From: a virus
Direction: 5' to 3' (one strand)
Virus record (IMG/VR): IMGVR_UViG_3300038696_000421
Location: 1 to 27,005 of that record
Length of the DNA stretch: 27,005 bases
Made by a program: the position numbers and the translations under genes. This document shows positions 5,616 to 16,050 of this stretch, one piece after another (the stretch's first letter is position 1; each line of letters begins with the position of its first letter). The notes beneath the pieces were generated by a model, which ran no database searches, was not told the DNA's origin, and worked only from the letters and a program-made list of their open reading frames with translations.

Positions 5616-5982
5616 TCAGCAGACGCTGCCCCCCGCCGTGCCCCCCGCCGTGCCGCCGCGCGCGGCCCTGTCTTTGGCCGATCAGGTGTTTGTCAATTAC
5701 ATGGCGGCGCTGAGTTGCAACCGGATCGAAAACCGCGACCGACGCAAGTTTGCGCGCGAGATTGCCGCCGAGGTTTTGCCGCAGGTGACGCGGGGCAACC
5801 GGTATCTGGATCCGATCCTTGAGGCGTTTGGCGCGCTGGAGCGGGCGGATGACCCGAAGGTGTCGCGGGCGTTGGAGCTGTTGAACCTGTCGGTCGCGCT
5901 GAGCGAGTTTTTCATGTGGCGCGGGGGCATGGCGTATGACGCCTTTGCCCGCGCGTCCAAGGCAGAGGAGCAAGGGACATGA
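5608..5982 (+). CDS. hypothetical small protein with Pro-rich N-terminus
   Basis: This 124-residue protein starts with a repeated PPAVPP tract (residues 7-16, encoded by the repeated ccccccgccgtg). A helical domain follows (LADQVFVNYMAALSCNRIEN, RRKFAREIAAEVLPQVTRG, ALELLNLSVALSEFFMWRGG). I do not recognise a family. The start at 5608 overlaps the previous stop; a longer open frame upstream would cover the preceding gene. It couples to the next gene through an ATGA overlap. Confidence 0.65.
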   Translation: MDDQQTLPPAVPPAVPPRAALSLADQVFVNYMAALSCNRIENRDRRKFAREIAAEVLPQVTRGNRYLDPILEAFGALERADDPKVSRALELLNLSVALSEFFMWRGGMAYDAFARASKAEEQGT

Positions 5983-7004
5983 GCGGATCGGTAGCAGTGC
6001 GCGCGATGCTGGTGGAGGTGAATTGCATGGTGATCGCGCTAAAGCGCCAGCAGGAGGTTTTGCGCGACCTGGTGGACAGTGTCGAGAAGGCCGAGGGGTT
6101 GGGATGCGAGGTTTCGGTCGAGACCGAGGTGATCGGGCAGACGCGGCGCGTGCGGCTGGATGTGTTGATGTCGGCCCCAGTGCCTGTGCCGGTGGCGCGG
6201 TCGGTGCCAATGGGGCGCGGGTTCGAGGTGGCGTTGGCCGAGGCGGACAAGCTGGATGCGACGCCACCGCTTGACCCGGCGCTGCGGCGCGAGGCGGTGG
6301 CGGATATTGCGCCGGTGGCGGTGGCGGAGGTTGCGCCGGAGGTGGTGGCCGATGTTGCGCCGGAGGTTGTGACGACGATCGTGGTGGACTTGCTGGACGA
6401 GGGGCCAAAGTTTCGGATCGAGGCAGCGCCCGAGCTTGGGCCTAAGCCGGTGGCGGAGGTTGTGCCGCGCGTTGCGACGTCCGCTGTACCGTTTGCAGCG
6501 CTTTGGACGGACATCGAGGATGCGACGGCCGTTGCGATGAAGGCCAAAGGGCATACCGCGCGCGAGATTGCAGAGCTGTTGGGACGCCCAGTGCCGGGTA
6601 CGCAATATCGGCTGAAAACGATGCTGAAAGAGCGCGTCGCACAAGCGCAGACCGGGGCGGCAACGCCGGCGGCAGCAAAGGCCGAGGTTGCGCCGCCGCG
6701 CGAGGATGACAACGCGCCCGCGCCCGCGCCCGCGACCACGACCACGCTGGAGGATCATATCGCCGGGCTGCGCCGGTCGGGGTCTTTCTGGACGCTGGAG
6801 CGGGATGAGGACCTGATGCGGCTGGCCGATCTGGGGTGGGACCCGGACACGCTGGCGCAGGAGATGGAGTGCGCGGCGCTGGATATCACCACCCGGTTCA
6901 AGGTGCTGACCGACAACAAGCGGTTTCCGCGTGCTGCGGTGGCGAAGTATCTGGCCGAAATCACGGCGGATGCGGTGCCGGTCGTCGCGTCGGGCGCGCG
7001 GTGA
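5979..7004 (+). CDS. two-repeat Myb/SANT-like DNA-binding protein
   Basis: This 341-residue protein has a layered architecture. Residues 1-60 are helical. About residues 105-140 form a degenerate repeat of the type VA(E/D)VAPEVV. Two Myb-like helical modules follow: the first near residues 175-215 (LWTDIEDATAVAMKAKGHTA, then AELLGRPVPGTQYRLKTML), the second near residues 265-310 (SFWTLERDEDLMRLADLGWD, then DITTRFKVL). A Pro/Ala-rich linker with APAPAPATTTT lies between them. Each module has the opening Trp, the acidic pair and the final helix with Arg. It probably binds DNA, perhaps as a replication or transcription factor. A good ribosome binding site (GGAG/AAGGGA) supports the start. Confidence 0.7.
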   Translation: MSGSVAVRAMLVEVNCMVIALKRQQEVLRDLVDSVEKAEGLGCEVSVETEVIGQTRRVRLDVLMSAPVPVPVARSVPMGRGFEVALAEADKLDATPPLDPALRREAVADIAPVAVAEVAPEVVADVAPEVVTTIVVDLLDEGPKFRIEAAPELGPKPVAEVVPRVATSAVPFAALWTDIEDATAVAMKAKGHTAREIAELLGRPVPGTQYRLKTMLKERVAQAQTGAATPAAAKAEVAPPREDDNAPAPAPATTTTLEDHIAGLRRSGSFWTLERDEDLMRLADLGWDPDTLAQEMECAALDITTRFKVLTDNKRFPRAAVAKYLAEITADAVPVVASGAR

Positions 7005-7007
7005 TCC

Positions 7008-8186
7008 ATGGGCGCGCCTGCCCCCAGTTCGCGCCAGCGTTATGCACTGGACGAGATCAAGGCGATGCTGATCGCGCGCGCCTTTGATGTGGCGCAGCAT
7101 TATGCGCCGCCGGTGCCGGGGGCGCATATCGACAAGGGTGGCTGGTGGACGCTTAACCCCGGCCGGGCCGATCGCAGCGTGGGCAGTTTTGTCGTGTGGA
7201 TCGAGGGGCCGAAGGTTGGATCGTTCCGCGATTTCGCCAGTGGCGATTTTGGCGATCTGCTGGACCTGATCCAACTGTCGCTGGGGTGCAGTGTGACCGA
7301 TGCGCTGCGCGAGGCGCGTGGATATCTGGGTTTGCAGAACGACGATCCGGCGGCGCAGAGGATCAGGGCCGAGGCGATCGAGCGGGGCCGCAGGATGCGC
7401 GCCGAGGCCGAGGCGAAGGCCCGTGCCGATGCCGAGCGGCGTGCCAGGCAGGCGCGCGCGATCTGGCTGGCCGGGCGCGAGGCGCTGCGCGGCACGCCGG
7501 TCGAATTTTACCTGCGCGACCAGCGCGGCATTGATCTGGCGGCGTTGGGCCGCCAGCCGCGCGCCCTGCGATATGTGCCCGAGCTGTTCTACACCCATGT
7601 CGACGGCGAAAGCGGCGAGATCATCGAGGGGCGCTGGCCTGCGATGGTGGCGATGGTGACCAACGGGCGCGGCGAAAGCGTCGCAGTGCATCGCACCTGG
7701 CTGGCGCAGGCGGCAGGCGGCGGATGGGGCAAGGCCCCGGTGCCCGAGGCCAAGAAGGTGCTGGGCAATTATGCCGGGGCCGCGATCCACATCTGGTCTG
7801 GTATCGGGCCGCGCGGCGGCAAGGCCGGGCCGTTGTCGCAATGCGGGGCGGGCGCGCATGTGTATCTGACCGAGGGCATCGAGGACGCGCTGTCGGTTGT
7901 GGCGCTGTTGCCCGAGGCGCGGGTGCTGGCCGGGATCAGCCTGTCGAATATCGGCCAGGTGGTTTTGCCCTTGAATGTGGCGACCCTGACGATCGTGGCG
8001 GACCAGGACGAGGGGCCAGAGCAACAGGCGGCGCTGGCGCGTGCGGTGGAGCGGCACGCGGCGCAGGGGCGCGCCGTCCGGCTTTGGCAGAACCGGCACG
8101 GCGGCAAGGATTTGAACGACGCGCTGCGCGCTGCGATCAGCAAACAGAAAAACACGGGGGCAGGCGATGAAAGATCAGCGCAATAG
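7008..8186 (+). CDS. DNA primase with Toprim domain
   Basis: This 392-residue primase would prime phage DNA replication. Residues 25-110 resemble the fold around a CHC2 zinc-binding domain (GGWWTLNPGR, VGSFRDFASGDFGDLLDLIQ), but the zinc cysteines are absent. Residues 120-150 are a charged coiled helix. Residues 150-280 match the phage primase core ending in KKVLGNYAGAAIHIW. The Toprim domain shows Glu289 in YLTEGIEDALSV and the Asp332/Asp334 pair in VADQDEG, followed by GGKDLNDAL. No helicase motor is present, so this is a primase-only protein; the P-loop protein at 10089 likely supplies the helicase. Confidence 0.85.
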   Translation: MGAPAPSSRQRYALDEIKAMLIARAFDVAQHYAPPVPGAHIDKGGWWTLNPGRADRSVGSFVVWIEGPKVGSFRDFASGDFGDLLDLIQLSLGCSVTDALREARGYLGLQNDDPAAQRIRAEAIERGRRMRAEAEAKARADAERRARQARAIWLAGREALRGTPVEFYLRDQRGIDLAALGRQPRALRYVPELFYTHVDGESGEIIEGRWPAMVAMVTNGRGESVAVHRTWLAQAAGGGWGKAPVPEAKKVLGNYAGAAIHIWSGIGPRGGKAGPLSQCGAGAHVYLTEGIEDALSVVALLPEARVLAGISLSNIGQVVLPLNVATLTIVADQDEGPEQQAALARAVERHAAQGRAVRLWQNRHGGKDLNDALRAAISKQKNTGAGDERSAQ

Positions 8187-9088: not shown

Positions 9089-9967
9089 TCATTCCGCAGC
9101 GATCGCAGCGGCTGGCGCGCTGGCAAGGGCCAGAGCGTAGTCCGTCGCCTTTTGCGCGGCGGCGGCGGCGCGGAAAATGAACCGCTTGTCGTCGCGCAGG
9201 GCCTTGAGCCAAGAGCCGATATAGGCGGCCGAGTTTTCGGTATTCAATTCGGCCCCGAGGCGGGCGCAAAGGAAGCACGCCCCCAGTTCGGCGACCAGCT
9301 CCTCGAAGGCGTAATCTGCCTGCCCTGCGATTTTCAGCCGATCAAGGCGCGACTTGTGGCCAGTCCAGTGCACCAGTTCGTGCGCGAGGGTGCCATAGTA
9401 ACCGGCAGCGGTGGCATACTGGGCGAGGCGCGGCATGTGGATCGTGTCGGGGCCAGGGCGGTAGCAGGGGTTGCATCCATCGACCAAGATGCGCGCGCCG
9501 GTGGCTGCGAAGAAGTTTTCCATCGCGTCGATCGCGTCGGGGCCTTCGCCGTCCGCCGGTTCGAAAAGATCGGGGGTCAGATCGCAGGGCAGGCCGTCGA
9601 TCTGTTGGACATTGAAAACCGTGTAGCTTTTCAGGAAGGGGATTTTCACCGCCTCGCCTGCATCATTTTCGCGGTCAAGCGCCGAATAAAAGACGATGCG
9701 CGAGCCCTTTTCGCCTTTGCGGACGTTTCCGCCTACGGCCTTTGCTTGCTTGAAGGTCATCCACTGGTCGGCAGTGAAGCCGTACTTTTCGGCCGCGATC
9801 CAGAGCAGCAGAACGTTGATGCCCTGGTAGAATTCGCCCGTCGCGCGGCGCGGCAGGGTGAAGACCGGCTTGCCGCCTTTCCAGTCCTTGTGCCAGGGCA
9901 ATGCACCCTTTTCCAAATGAGCAACGATCGCGTCGGTGATTTCCTGGTGAATGTCGATCCGGGTCAT
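9089..9967 (-). CDS. ArdC-like antirestriction protein (ssDNA-binding domain plus zincin metalloprotease)
   Basis: This 292-residue protein matches the ArdC family. The N-terminal domain (residues 1-125) has the ssDNA-binding signature IDIHQEITDAIVAHLEKGAL, PWHKDWKGG, FYQGINVLLLW, and WMTFKQAKAVGGNVRKGEKG. The C-terminal zincin domain carries HELVH at 196-200 (TLAHELVHWTGH), followed by a FEELVAELG helix that would supply the third zinc ligand. ArdC proteins protect incoming DNA from restriction during plasmid transfer; in a phage the natural inference is protection of entering or replicating DNA. It is transcribed against the surrounding early genes from its own promoter. Confidence 0.92.
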   Translation of the reverse strand: MTRIDIHQEITDAIVAHLEKGALPWHKDWKGGKPVFTLPRRATGEFYQGINVLLLWIAAEKYGFTADQWMTFKQAKAVGGNVRKGEKGSRIVFYSALDRENDAGEAVKIPFLKSYTVFNVQQIDGLPCDLTPDLFEPADGEGPDAIDAMENFFAATGARILVDGCNPCYRPGPDTIHMPRLAQYATAAGYYGTLAHELVHWTGHKSRLDRLKIAGQADYAFEELVAELGACFLCARLGAELNTENSAAYIGSWLKALRDDKRFIFRAAAAAQKATDYALALASAPAAAIAAE

Positions 9968-10088: not shown

Positions 10089-11987
10089 ATGGTTGACCAA
10101 GACAGCCTGCGAGCCGAGCTGGAAAGCGCGCCGGTGGTGGCGGTGGGGGCTTCGCCCAGTGCTGTGGCCAGTGCTGCGCCTGATGCCGCACCAGGTGCCG
10201 CGAATGGCACGGGTGCGCCGGAGCCTGCGCCGGGTGGCGCGGGCGATGGGGGCAAGAAAAAGGGCCGACCGCGCGGCGAGATATTCAGGGATTGCCCCGT
10301 GGTGCCGCTGGGGGTTTATGGCGATGTGTCGTATTACCTCGACCGGCTGGGGCAGCTGCGCGCGATCGACAATCATAGCCTGGACAAGATCAGGCATGTT
10401 TTCGGCGGCGATGTGCGGCTTTTGTCGATGCATTTTCCGCAATACGACAAGGACGGCGACAAAAAGCCCGGCAAGTTCGATCAGGCATCGGCGGCGGCGG
10501 TGATGACCGAGGCCAGCGCCGAGCGGGGCGTGTGGTCACCCGTGGGCCGGGTGCGCGGAGCAGGTGCGTGGGCGGATGATGACGGCAGCCTGATCTATCA
10601 CGCGGGCGACGAGGTGTTGATCGGCGGCAGGTGGCTGCGGCCTGGTGTTTATGCGGGGCACGTGTACCCAGCGTCCGACCCGGTGCCACGGCCAGCGCCG
10701 ACGGCGCGCGGTGATGCGGCAGGCGAGGCGCTGGCGCTGATCTCGACCTGGGCGTGGCGGCGGCCAGACATCGACCCGCAGCTGGCACTAGGCGTGGCCT
10801 GTGCGCAGATGATGGGCGGTGCGCTCGATTGGCGGCCCGTGGGCTGGCTGACCGGCGACGCGGCGACCGGCAAGAGCACGTTTCAGAAGTTCCTCTTGTG
10901 GCTGCACGGCGGCGAAGCGGGGCTGTTGCAGGCCGCCGATGCGACCGAAGCCGGGATCCGGTCAGTCGTGGGATATTCGAGCCTGCCAGTGGCGGTGGAC
11001 GAGCTGGAGCCTGACAAGGACAACCCGCGCAAGGTCAAGGCCGTGATCGAGCTGGCGCGCCGGGCGGCATCGGGCGGCCAGATTTTCAGGGGCGGTGCCG
11101 ACCAGAAGGGGCACCAATCGAACGCCCAATCGGCATTCCTTTTTTCGTCGATCCTTGTGCCGCCGATGCCTGCACAGGACCGCAGCCGGTTGATCCTGCT
11201 GGACCTGAACCAGCTTCCCCCCGACGCCCCCAAGATCAGTCTCGATCCGCGCAAGTGGCGCGGCGTGGGCGCGCAGATACGCCGCGCGCTGATCGAGGGG
11301 TGGCCAACGTGGCCCGCGCGGCTGGAGCTGTGGCGCGCAACGCTGGCGCGGCATGGGCAGACCGGGCGCGGTGCCGACAATTTCGCAACCGTGCTGGCCA
11401 TGGCCGACATGGCGATGCGGTCAGATATGCCGGGGGCCGACGAGCTGAACGCCTGGGCGCGCAAGGTCAGCCATGCCAGCACCGAAGACGCGCTGGAAGT
11501 TGGCAGCAATGCCGACGACATGCTGATGCGCCTGATGGGCCAGCCGCTGGACGTGTGGCGACGTGGCCGGAAGTTTACCGTCGGTCAGTGGGTGGCCATG
11601 GCGGCGCGGATGCCCGGCGCGCGCGATGCGATCGACGAGGCGACGCCCGACACGGCCAACCAGTTTCTGGCGCCCTATGGTCTGCGCGTGCGCGGGCGCG
11701 GATCGGAGGCGGCGCTTTGCATCGCCAACCGCCCGCTGGCGCTGTTGAGCGAGCTCTTCAAGGACAGCCCGTGGGCAGAGGGCGTTTGGAGCCAGGCGGC
11801 GCGGCGATTGCCCGGGGCCAAGGCCACGCCGCCGCTGCACTTTGCAGGCGCATCGAGCCGCGCGTGGGAAGTGCCGCTGGCCGGTATTCCGGGGCTTTTG
11901 CAGTTTCCGGCCGACCGTGACGACGGGCAAAACCCCGCCGCACCACCCGGTTACGGATTGCCCTCAGATGCGGAGGATTTCGTATGA
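10089..11987 (+). CDS. P-loop replicative helicase-like protein
   Basis: This 632-residue protein probably acts as the replication helicase. Residues 1-55 are a disordered Ala/Pro tail. Residues 56-64 form an AT-hook-like KKKGRPRGE. Residues 65-200 are a DNA-interaction or primase-like N-domain. The ATPase core has Walker A at 256-263 (GDAATGKS) and a Walker B candidate at 301-305 (VAVDE), followed by a sensor-like QSAFLFSSI. The C-terminal 150 residues look like a winged-helix region. The architecture resembles phage and plasmid D5/DUF927-type replication proteins. It is placed directly before the iteron array, which suits origin recognition or loading. The family assignment beyond P-loop ATPase is inference. 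Confidence 0.75.
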   Translation: MVDQDSLRAELESAPVVAVGASPSAVASAAPDAAPGAANGTGAPEPAPGGAGDGGKKKGRPRGEIFRDCPVVPLGVYGDVSYYLDRLGQLRAIDNHSLDKIRHVFGGDVRLLSMHFPQYDKDGDKKPGKFDQASAAAVMTEASAERGVWSPVGRVRGAGAWADDDGSLIYHAGDEVLIGGRWLRPGVYAGHVYPASDPVPRPAPTARGDAAGEALALISTWAWRRPDIDPQLALGVACAQMMGGALDWRPVGWLTGDAATGKSTFQKFLLWLHGGEAGLLQAADATEAGIRSVVGYSSLPVAVDELEPDKDNPRKVKAVIELARRAASGGQIFRGGADQKGHQSNAQSAFLFSSILVPPMPAQDRSRLILLDLNQLPPDAPKISLDPRKWRGVGAQIRRALIEGWPTWPARLELWRATLARHGQTGRGADNFATVLAMADMAMRSDMPGADELNAWARKVSHASTEDALEVGSNADDMLMRLMGQPLDVWRRGRKFTVGQWVAMAARMPGARDAIDEATPDTANQFLAPYGLRVRGRGSEAALCIANRPLALLSELFKDSPWAEGVWSQAARRLPGAKATPPLHFAGASSRAWEVPLAGIPGLLQFPADRDDGQNPAAPPGYGLPSDAEDFV

Positions 11988-12103
11988 TGACCCGGCGCGA
12001 TAACGGCAAGCCCTTGGAAACGCTGGTTTCATCCCGCTTGCCCCGCACCCCGTGGCGTGCCATTATTTCCCTGCGGTGGGAGTGCTTCGCCCCGGGTATG
12101 GGG

Positions 12104-12353
12104 CTGCTACAGTGTAGCAGGCATGTAGCAGGCAGTGTAGCAGGCAAAAGCCCTGCGATTTCAGCCCCTTACCCCGTATCTGCTACGCTGCTACGCCTGA
12201 TGTGCATTCCCTCGTATGCATGCACACACGCGCGCGCGCGCATGCGGCAATGTATATATATCTGTAGCAGCGTAGCAGAGATATATAAGTATCTGAAAAG
12301 ACAGGCCGAAATGCTGCTACGGTGCCTGCTACATGCCTGCTACACCGTAGCAG
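12104..12353. repeat. mirror-symmetric iteron array, 12 x GTAGCAG/CTGCTAC
   Basis: GTAGCAG starts at 12114, 12125, 12137, 12264, 12272 and 12347. CTGCTAC starts at 12104, 12180, 12188, 12314, 12326 and 12337. From the outside inwards the spacing is 10, 11, 12, 43, 8 on the left and 10, 11, 12, 42, 8 on the right, so the whole array is its own reverse complement in layout. The outer 31 bp of each arm match at 30 positions (12104-12134 against 12323-12353) and the inner 15 bp match exactly (12180-12194 against 12264-12278), while the stretches between have diverged. Confidence 0.92.
12213..12246. repeat. 34-bp alternating purine-pyrimidine tract (Z-DNA prone)
   Basis: This is an uninterrupted alternation of pyrimidine and purine made of TG/CA steps and a run of CG steps (12229-12241). 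A second TA-alternating stretch follows at 12251-12261. The symmetry axis of the iteron array (about 12228.5) falls inside the tract. Such sequence readily adopts Z-form or melts under negative supercoiling. Confidence 0.85.
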
Positions 12354-12392
12354 GTGCGGCCAACCCCTTGAAAATGCTGGAAAAGGGGGGGA

Positions 12393-13043
12393 ATGGCCAT
12401 GCCGTCGCCTGACAATCGCTTTCAAGTGCTGGCGCAGGAGGCTGCCGATCGGCTGGACCGGGCGCGTGCGGCTGGCGAGCAGCTGGAGCTGTTGCCCGTC
12501 GCGCCGGATACCGACGCCGCGATGGTGCCGCAGGGTGCTGGCGTGCCGGGACGTGGCCGGGGCAAGGCGCAGGTCAGCCAGGTGCGCAGCTGGCTGGCCG
12601 CCAAGGGATACCGGATGCCCGAAGATGTGCTGTCCGAGATGGCAGGGCTGGCCAGCGGCGAGGATGCTTTCACCACCGCGATGGTCCGGGCAGAGCAGGC
12701 AATGCTGTGGGCAGGCGCGTCGTTGCCGCCGAAGGCGCGGATCGACCTGTTCTTGCAGCTTTACGCGATGCAGCTGCGGGCGGCAGATGCCCTGATGCCC
12801 TACGGCGCGGCCAAGGTGAGCACGGATGCGCCGCGCCCAGCCTCGGTGCAGGTCAATGTGATCGGCGGGACAGTGCAGGATGCAGGGGCGCAGGCGCGCG
12901 ATGTGACGCCGCGCGAGGGGCGCGCGGGCCAGCGGATCGCGCCGCCGCCGATGCCTTGGGAAATGCAGCAAAATCAAGCGGTTGCGGATGAAGGCGACGA
13001 CGCTACGGACGGCCAGTCACGGACGGAAGGGCCAAGCGCATGA
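12393..13043 (+). CDS. putative terminase small subunit
   Basis: This 216-residue protein lies one gene upstream of the large terminase, the usual place of the small subunit. Residues 15-35 are helical, residues 50-58 basic (GRGRGKAQ), and residues 60-130 a helical bundle (VRSWLAAKGYRMPEDVLSEM, LPPKARIDLFLQLYAMQLRA). The segment ADALMPYGAAKV, followed by a beta strand (PASVQVNVIGG), resembles the core-to-C-terminal part of small terminases that bind DNA as a ring. It would recognise packaging sites and hand DNA to TerL. The assignment rests mostly on position. ATG at 12399 is an alternative start with better spacing to the GGGGGG run. Confidence 0.55.
   Translation: MAMPSPDNRFQVLAQEAADRLDRARAAGEQLELLPVAPDTDAAMVPQGAGVPGRGRGKAQVSQVRSWLAAKGYRMPEDVLSEMAGLASGEDAFTTAMVRAEQAMLWAGASLPPKARIDLFLQLYAMQLRAADALMPYGAAKVSTDAPRPASVQVNVIGGTVQDAGAQARDVTPREGRAGQRIAPPPMPWEMQQNQAVADEGDDATDGQSRTEGPSA
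13005..13026 (-). repeat. CCGTCCGT motif, inverted relative of the attL-flank repeat
   Basis: Read on the minus strand this is CCGTCCGTG, AC, TGGCCGTCCGT. The segment at 163-188 on the plus strand is CCGTCCGTG, a 6-nt spacer, TGGCCGTCCGT. Twenty positions in two blocks are identical. Here it sits at the 3' end of the putative small terminase gene. Confidence 0.6.
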
Positions 13044-13269
13044 AATCAATGGAGAAAATAGTGCGTATCCAGTTGATTGAAAATCAGTTGCCGCGCGTCC
13101 TGGGCGCAGGGATGCGACCCACCCCCCTTCGCACTTTCGGCCCTGACCGCCCGCGTCTCGACCCCCGGGGGGGGGCGGCGCGCGGTCTTCATTCCCCCCT
13201 CTGTCCGACCCCATGCAAAAAAACGGCGAACACTTTGGTAATGCGCCGGGGGAAGGGGAGGGTCAGGCC
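13044..13269. promoter_or_regulatory. 226-bp leader before the large terminase
   Basis: No credible gene is visible. The first 50 bp are AT-rich, then the segment becomes C- and G-run rich, with a CCCCCGGGGG palindrome at 13162-13171. GGCCCTGACC (13139-13148) can pair, with one bulged C, with GGTCAGGCC (13261-13269), which ends at the terminase ATG. CCCCTTC at 13124-13130 can pair with the GAAGGGG of the ribosome binding region. It may be a structured leader, or it may contain the packaging site; neither is proven. Confidence 0.4.
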
Positions 13270-15855: not shown

Positions 15856-16050
15856 ATGTGCATCTTTGGACGCCCAAGGGCCCCGCAACCCGCCGCCATG
15901 CGGGTCGCGGCCACCGACAACCGCGAAAGCATCCAGCAGGGCGATGCCGAGGCCCGGATGCGCCGTCTGCGCGCGGGCGCTGCGGCCAACGTGCTGACCA
16001 GCCCGCGCGGCATTCCCGCAACCCCGACGCTGGGCGGGGTGGCAGCATGA
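15856..16050 (+). CDS. small MCxFGRP-type phage protein before the portal
   Basis: This 64-residue protein starts MCIFGRPRAPQPAAMRVAAT, followed by an acidic/basic helical segment (RESIQQGDAEARMRRLRAG) and a TSPRGIPATPTLGGV tail. Short proteins with an N-terminal MC/MG-x-P-K/R-AP motif and an (I/V)LTS-G tail are common next to portal genes in short-tailed phages; their role is not established. AGGAG lies 10 nt upstream of the ATG, and the stop overlaps the portal start (ATGA). Confidence 0.75.
   Translation: MCIFGRPRAPQPAAMRVAATDNRESIQQGDAEARMRRLRAGAAANVLTSPRGIPATPTLGGVAA

Follow-up and report, generated by a model that had tools for sequence, protein, structure and literature searches.

The window, by which we mean the whole stretch of 27,005 nucleotides analysed here, is an entire IMG/VR record (IMGVR_UViG_3300038696_000421) and is itself a phage fragment. 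Its gene order runs from integrase-like and repressor-like genes through a Toprim primase gene, an ArdC gene on the other strand and a helicase gene to a heptamer array, which is followed by a TerS-like gene at 12393, a P-loop TerL-like gene at 13213 and a head-tail connector gene at 15858. The integrase-like gene has no Pfam match and is labelled from sequence only, and no family model matched the TerS-like and TerL-like proteins, which are named from position and sequence alone. The connector matches PF12236 (E = 1.8e-97) and is accompanied by a long late-gene block with portal-like and other late genes; we regard the element as a full phage and not as a satellite lacking its own structural genes. 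Searches for a Rep_3 family initiator gave no match among ten window proteins (Pfam) or five (NCBIfam), and a DNA search of named phages found no close relative. The ArdC-type antirestriction gene (9089-9967, minus strand) lies between primase and helicase and is present in only 2 of the compared loci. The features that concern us are listed below, where "word" denotes the heptamer repeated in an array.

7008-8186, plus strand: Toprim primase (DUF7146 + Toprim_3), a separate gene and probable partner of the helicase
10089-11987, plus strand: D5/SF3-like AAA+ helicase of 632 aa, the proposed initiator; Walker A motif GDAATGKS
11505-11903, plus strand: C-terminal domain of the helicase (aa 473-605), predicted to be winged-helix-like and DNA-binding without binding data (AlphaFold2, pLDDT >90 over most of it)
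11838-11855, plus strand: codons of aa 584-589 (HFAGAS), the predicted beta-wing, covarying with word bases 3 (584), 2 (587) and 5 (589)
12104-12143: left outer set of four heptamers, 12104-12110 (minus), 12114-12120 (plus), 12125-12131 (plus) and 12137-12143 (plus)
12159-12171, plus strand: IHF-like site TTTCAGCCCCTTA in the left 43-bp gap, matching 7/9 consensus positions in the window and up to 9/9 in relatives
12180-12194, minus strand: left inner pair, 12180-12186 and 12188-12194
12213-12246: central alternating purine-pyrimidine tract of 34 bp
12251-12263, plus strand: AT-rich TGTATATATATCT, a candidate melting site, the melting role being inferred
12264-12278, plus strand: right inner pair, 12264-12270 and 12272-12278
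12286-12298, minus strand: weaker IHF-like match TTTCAGATACTTA in the right gap, inside a conserved AT-rich stretch
12314-12353: right outer set of four heptamers, 12314-12320 (minus), 12326-12332 (minus), 12337-12343 (minus) and 12347-12353 (plus)
12393-13043, plus strand: TerS-like gene, labelled by position only, 3' of the array in 43 of the 44 phages compared below

Within the 250 bp of 12104-12353, twelve GTAGCAG/CTGCTAC heptamers stand in mirror order with the layout <10>11>12>43<8<76>8>42<12<11<10>, in which a single base in the 43/42 spacing is the sole deviation from the mirror. The heptamer occurs 14 times in the 27-kb window against 0.88 expected, a count reached in none of the shuffled window sequences, and 12 of the 14 copies fall inside this one stretch; the other two are isolated, and because the record is a fragment a distant cluster could lie beyond it. 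Compared as inverted copies, the outer 31 bp of the two arms are identical at 30 of 31 positions and the inner 15 bp at all 15, whereas the 43/42-bp gaps agree at merely 15 of 35. The array occupies the gap between the helicase stop at 11987 and the next start at 12393. Several claims of the first-pass annotation therefore held, namely the position, order and orientation of the twelve heptamers (with spacing mirrored save for 43/42), the near-identity of the arms with diverged connecting stretches, and the location in a non-coding gap right after a P-loop helicase gene. A 142-aa open reading frame spanning this gap (11984-12412) was rejected as a gene, since the words within it turn over between phages.

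The helicase matches PHROG 21086 and 35358, both annotated 'DNA primase', and its full structure model has a mean pLDDT of 83.7. Foldseek matches of this model include the SaPI5 primase-helicase (7ola), the NrS-1 C-terminal region, MPXV E5 and AAV Rep40, with E-values down to 7.5e-6 against D5-type helicases and low whole-chain TM-scores; a sequence search of solved structures returned nothing meaningful. The DUF927 model scores the window protein at E = 0.029, short of the cut-off, and finds weak similarity in 18 of 41 homologues (down to 6.2e-5). By its structural matches, the helicase has an AAA+ fold of the D5/SF3 initiator helicase type, to which SaPI5 Rep also belongs. In the model of the C-terminal domain, two helices precede a beta-wing, with residue 584 on the first strand, 587 at the turn and 589 on the second strand. 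This domain has only weak structural matches (Z up to 3.5), mostly to winged-helix DNA-binding domains with TcpK at the top, and a fold search with the domain alone gave no confident match. The P4 alpha domain was absent from the chains reported by that search, which does not exclude it.

We gathered homologues of the helicase from viral contigs and bacterial genomes, the named hosts being Rhodobacteraceae, and found that in nearly all of them the region 3' of the helicase carries an array with the same plan and another word. The 44 arrays considered here are those fitting the register C-2-3-C-5-A-C, and they come from related, mostly Rhodobacterales phages. Their common layout is about <8<23>12>43<8<76>8>43<12<21>12>, with exactly twelve sites in 24 of the 44 when one mismatch is allowed, and 71.5% of their sites have mirror partners, compared with 39.8 +/- 1.4% once gaps and orientations had been shuffled. 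The words are of 13 kinds: CCACAAC (16 arrays), CCACGAC (6), CTACAAC (4), CTACGAC and CCACTAC (3 each), CTGCTAC, CCGCTAC, CCGCGAC and CCGCAAC (2 each), and CTGCGAC, CTGCAAC, CCCCTAC and CAGCAAC (1 each). A further phage (L127) has twelve exact CCATACC sites 121 bp past its helicase stop, a word outside the common C..C.AC register in a near-perfect mirror, <8<24>11>42<8<79>8>41<11<24>8>. In two helicase homologues (L091 and L139), no array was found. Two prophages of one host genome share the word GGGACAC (L065 6649-6897 and L066 6103-6375), a misfit to any strict rule that co-resident elements differ.

The first-pass annotation had proposed comparing array spacing in related phages and listed unconserved heptamer order, along with a lack of read enrichment during lytic replication, as refuting its reading. 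Order and spacing are conserved and the word is not, so the former outcome did not occur. It had also argued for selection on the sites and their geometry rather than simple duplication, a view supported by conserved geometry under word turnover and by the diverged gaps. The rival possibility, a functionless array left by simple duplication or inversion, could draw on the near-identical inverted copies in the arms of the window. However, site order and spacing stay alike while the word changes across 44 phages and across plasmids from another bacterial class, the stretches between sites have diverged, and the words covary with the helicase, so that this explanation is all but excluded.

GTAGCAG itself cannot be regarded as a universal motif, given that unrelated phages (L018-L026) carry GTAGCAG arrays, yet no helicase homologue was found in their records, which may be fragments. 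The sharing of this word between the window and these phages looks like convergence. Several arrays on the unrelated contigs are two-sided; examples of their arrays lie at L024 2530-2835, L026 10413-10718, L023 5486-6190 and L020 3277-3383.

Which protein reads the word is indicated by covariation. Words were called blind to protein, and co-change was assessed over 600 columns on a tree of the helicase body minus its C-terminal part; the p-values are approximate, as an equal chance of change was assumed on every branch. For base 3, the best of the 600 columns is residue 584 (p = 1.1e-8, with 8 of 8 base changes accompanied), four orders of magnitude ahead of the next column at 2e-4. For base 2 it is residue 587 (p = 3.5e-6), and for base 5 residue 589 (p = 2.3e-4), which alone fails correction for 600 columns. 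Each of the three variable bases thus has its top column within one stretch of six residues, 584-589. As an overall trend, T or S at 584 goes with A at base 3, R, K or H with G, and Y with C; pairing of R, K and H with G fits standard protein-DNA chemistry. The table relating residues to words is nearly one to one, in that CCA always occurs with T584 and G587, CTA with T584 and R587 or with S584 and G587, CCG with R/K584 and G587, CTG with H584 or with K/S584 and C/H587, CCC with Y584, and CAG with R584. When a rule derived from the first 33 arrays was applied to 12 further arrays, it predicted base 3 correctly in all of them. Between close relatives whose words differ, the wing region has diverged far more than the body, with identities of 59% versus 89% for the pair L070/L133 and 79% versus 94% for L051/L054.

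No comparable signal was found in the neighbouring proteins that could be assessed. The TerS-like protein (43 sequences) has no covarying column, its best p of 2e-3 among 201 columns failing correction, and neither the Toprim primase (37 sequences) nor the TerL-like protein (41 sequences) shows word covariation that survives correction. We therefore set all three aside as readers of the array, on covariation alone. The 5979-7004 and ArdC genes have too few homologues in the compared loci for this analysis. The first-pass annotation had named the products of both 7008-8186 and 10089-11987 as candidate binders; the primase is an unlikely reader because it does not covary with the word, while the helicase is favoured by the covariation of its wing, although there are no binding data. 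Collectively, the covariation supports that the C-terminal wing of the helicase sets word specificity, binding itself being inferred.

A distant homologue of the helicase (about 24% identity) is found on small plasmids of Arsenophonus nasoniae, again next to a mirror array. These plasmid arrays have twelve sites in a 6+6 mirror with the 44- and 8-bp spacings seen in the phages and AT-rich centres, as in >12>12>12>44<8<101>8>44<12<12<12< with the word GGTTGTA. On the linear 8.19-kb plasmid paNv_CH14, the only open reading frames of at least 100 aa encode the helicase, a YhgA-like transposase and a telomere resolvase; as no other replication-type frame of that length is present, helicase and array are the obvious replicon of this plasmid. 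Sibling plasmids of one strain are paNv_CAN17, with GGTTGTA, and paNv_CAN18, whose helicase is identical to that of paNv_CH14, where the array has GTAATG-type sites. In another strain, paPv13 (CTAACAA) and paPv15 (GGTAACA) likewise differ in word. Farther afield, an array of 11 sites follows the primase/helicase of Bdellovibrio phage phi1422.

Some of these elements bear additional features. Five Arsenophonus nasoniae plasmids (L155-L158 and L161) combine a telomere resolvase with the D5-like helicase and mirror array, some also with a terminase small subunit, and resemble reduced N15-like telomeric phage relatives or satellites. Two of them also have, next to the gene for the terminase small subunit, a second, mostly one-sided cluster of CTACAAG (L155 9038-9275 and L156 6619-6777), possibly a packaging site. 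Circular phage-like plasmids of 39-41 kb from Phaeobacter (L153) and Leisingera (L160) carry terminase genes and a distant helicase homologue with no clear mirror array nearby.

The position of the array invites a rival view, in which the TerS-like protein, whose gene follows 40 bp further on, binds it as a cos or pac site at which DNA packaging starts. The array begins about 90-380 bp past the helicase stop in 42 of the 44 phages (the exceptions being L036 and L089), and it lies 0-130 bp 5' of the TerS-like gene in 43 of them, even where the helicase is 1.5-2.2 kb off. Proximity to the terminase genes, themselves labelled by position, thus speaks for packaging, and lambda cosB is likewise known to combine multiple sites with an IHF bend. 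Against it, the columns that covary with the word are in the helicase wing and not in the TerS-like protein, with the reservation that binding data are lacking, and on the Arsenophonus plasmids the array follows the helicase while the terminase small subunit is kilobases away or not annotated. We consider a packaging site very unlikely as the primary function. Nevertheless, in three phages (L036, L049 and L089) at least one gene separates the helicase from the array, which keeps its place next to the TerS-like gene; under an origin reading, this link to the TerS-like gene is unexplained. For this reason, a further part in packaging or in the expression of late genes is not excluded.

Another rival gives the array, bound by the helicase or some other protein, a main task other than starting replication, namely regulating transcription of the late genes that follow or segregating the replicon. 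Its location between the early and late blocks, just 5' of the TerS-like gene, would suit such a regulatory or partition array. However, twelve mirror sites at fixed spacing that track a hexameric AAA+ helicase exceed, by our inference, what a repressor would need, no ParA-like neighbour of the array was seen, and the smallest array-bearing plasmid has no other candidate initiator. A primarily regulatory or partition function thus appears very improbable.

The gaps and the centre of the array hold further elements. Across the 44 phages, the IHF-like match in the left gap averages 7.82/9, against 5.95 +/- 0.10 in shuffled sequences, and is nearly always on the same strand, while that in the right gap averages 7.29/9 over relatives, against 6.39 +/- 0.11. 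The alternating purine-pyrimidine run between the inner pairs has a mean length of 25 bp, compared with 10 bp in dinucleotide shuffles. In the window, the centre is a CG/CA alternating tract with AT only as short stretches alongside, and the tract could conceivably be a Z-DNA or melting element. The alternating CG centre also suggested a telomere-resolvase site, which was dropped, as the centre is no long palindrome (its halves match at 3 of 34 positions) and the window encodes an integrase-like gene, itself without a family match.

We conclude that the array is very likely (probability about 0.88) a phage replication origin whose reader is a helicase that loads itself, probably as a pair of opposed hexamers, a conclusion reached by computation only, without binding or replication data. 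The first-pass annotation had offered the origin as an inference. It is now supported by a geometry conserved among 44 homologues, by a word that covaries with the helicase wing and with no other protein we could compare, and by small linear plasmids on which the array is apparently the sole origin candidate; geometry, word turnover, covariation and plasmid context were all computed here. In the mechanism we propose, the C-terminal winged-helix domain would read the heptamers, with the wing at 584-589 picking bases 2, 3 and probably 5. Binding to each six-site arm would place one hexamer per arm, so that two hexamers face opposite ways around the centre, and bending at the IHF-like sites of the 43-bp gaps may fold the arms. 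Melting of the centre would follow, with the helicases unwinding outward, bidirectionally, and priming left to the separate Toprim primase. Binding is inferred, and hexamer loading, melting, IHF bending and bidirectionality are drawn by analogy with SaPI Rep. Because few wing residues would choose the word, word and wing could drift together while the spacing stays fixed, giving each replicon a private origin code.

It is tempting to go further and hypothesize that many phages and linear plasmids share one blueprint of two six-site arms and two opposed hexamers, with a small residue-to-base code in the wing (584 for base 3, 587 for base 2, 589 helping with base 5), and that lineages switch words repeatedly under a constant geometry, the word serving as an identity tag of the replicon. 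We lean towards this bolder reading by a narrow margin only; the different words of sibling plasmids within one Arsenophonus strain would fit it. It has long been asked how initiators and origins can shift specificity in step and still sustain replication, and to this question these elements bring dozens of natural matched helicase-origin pairs, some with bodies about 90% identical and words one or two bases apart. Since such pairs exist, the code is directly testable with natural proteins and arrays. The same relationship offers a means of locating origins in phages that have not been cultured and of predicting an array's word from its protein.

Several known systems share parts of this arrangement. 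In phage P4, the winged-helix domain of the alpha primase-helicase binds origin repeats (PMC4234260, citing Yeo et al. 2002). P4 unites primase, helicase and origin binding in one protein, whereas here the primase is a separate gene, and the window, a fragment, shows one compact symmetric array with repeat words other than those of the P4 ori and crr. The C-terminal domain of SCCmec Cch2 binds repeats just 3' of its gene, where three AAGTG iterons are reported, and Cch is a DUF927 helicase (PMC7581432), the family weakly matched by 18 of the 41 homologues mentioned above; three iterons, however, do not make a twelve-site mirror array. In the PLE of Vibrio cholerae, origin and the initiator RepA covary as a cognate module (PMC8263062), as word and wing do here, but that initiator is RepA_N-type and not a helicase, and its iterons are three semi-palindromes of ~30 bp. 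TcpK of plasmid pCW3, the top though weak structural match (Z 3.5), is a winged-helix protein that reads tandem 9-nt repeats via its beta-wing (PMC6137059), although it is a conjugation accessory protein and neither a helicase nor an initiator.

The closest parallel is with the SaPI/PICI satellites, where two iteron sets surround a melting region beside the helicase gene (PMC6092414, PMC7581432) and the C-terminal domain of SaPI Rep reportedly recognizes iterons directly 3' of its own gene, with binding reported as two hexamers (PMC7581432). The window and 42 of the 44 phages likewise have the initiator helicase gene directly 5' of the putative origin, two iteron sets (6+6 in mirror) flank a central region, specificity appears to reside in the C-terminal domain, as indicated by the covariation of the word with residues 584 and 587 (binding being inferred), and the SaPI5 Rep fold is among the best matches of the helicase. 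The first-pass claim that no origin with such two-fold symmetry had been described therefore failed, and symmetry alone is not new. The differences are that the centre is AT-rich in SaPI/PICI and a GC-containing alternating purine-pyrimidine tract in the window, that the element is a full phage and not a satellite, and that here the 6+6 geometry is fixed across many words and the word-tracking residues are identified. In the literature searched, mostly without subscription papers, we found no description of a fixed 6+6 geometry with a drifting word, of such a residue-base code, or of this arrangement in full phages and telomeric plasmids. We regard these three points as new, the code being an apparent one; through the last of them, an origin plan once described as exclusive to PICI satellites reaches ordinary phages and linear telomeric plasmids.
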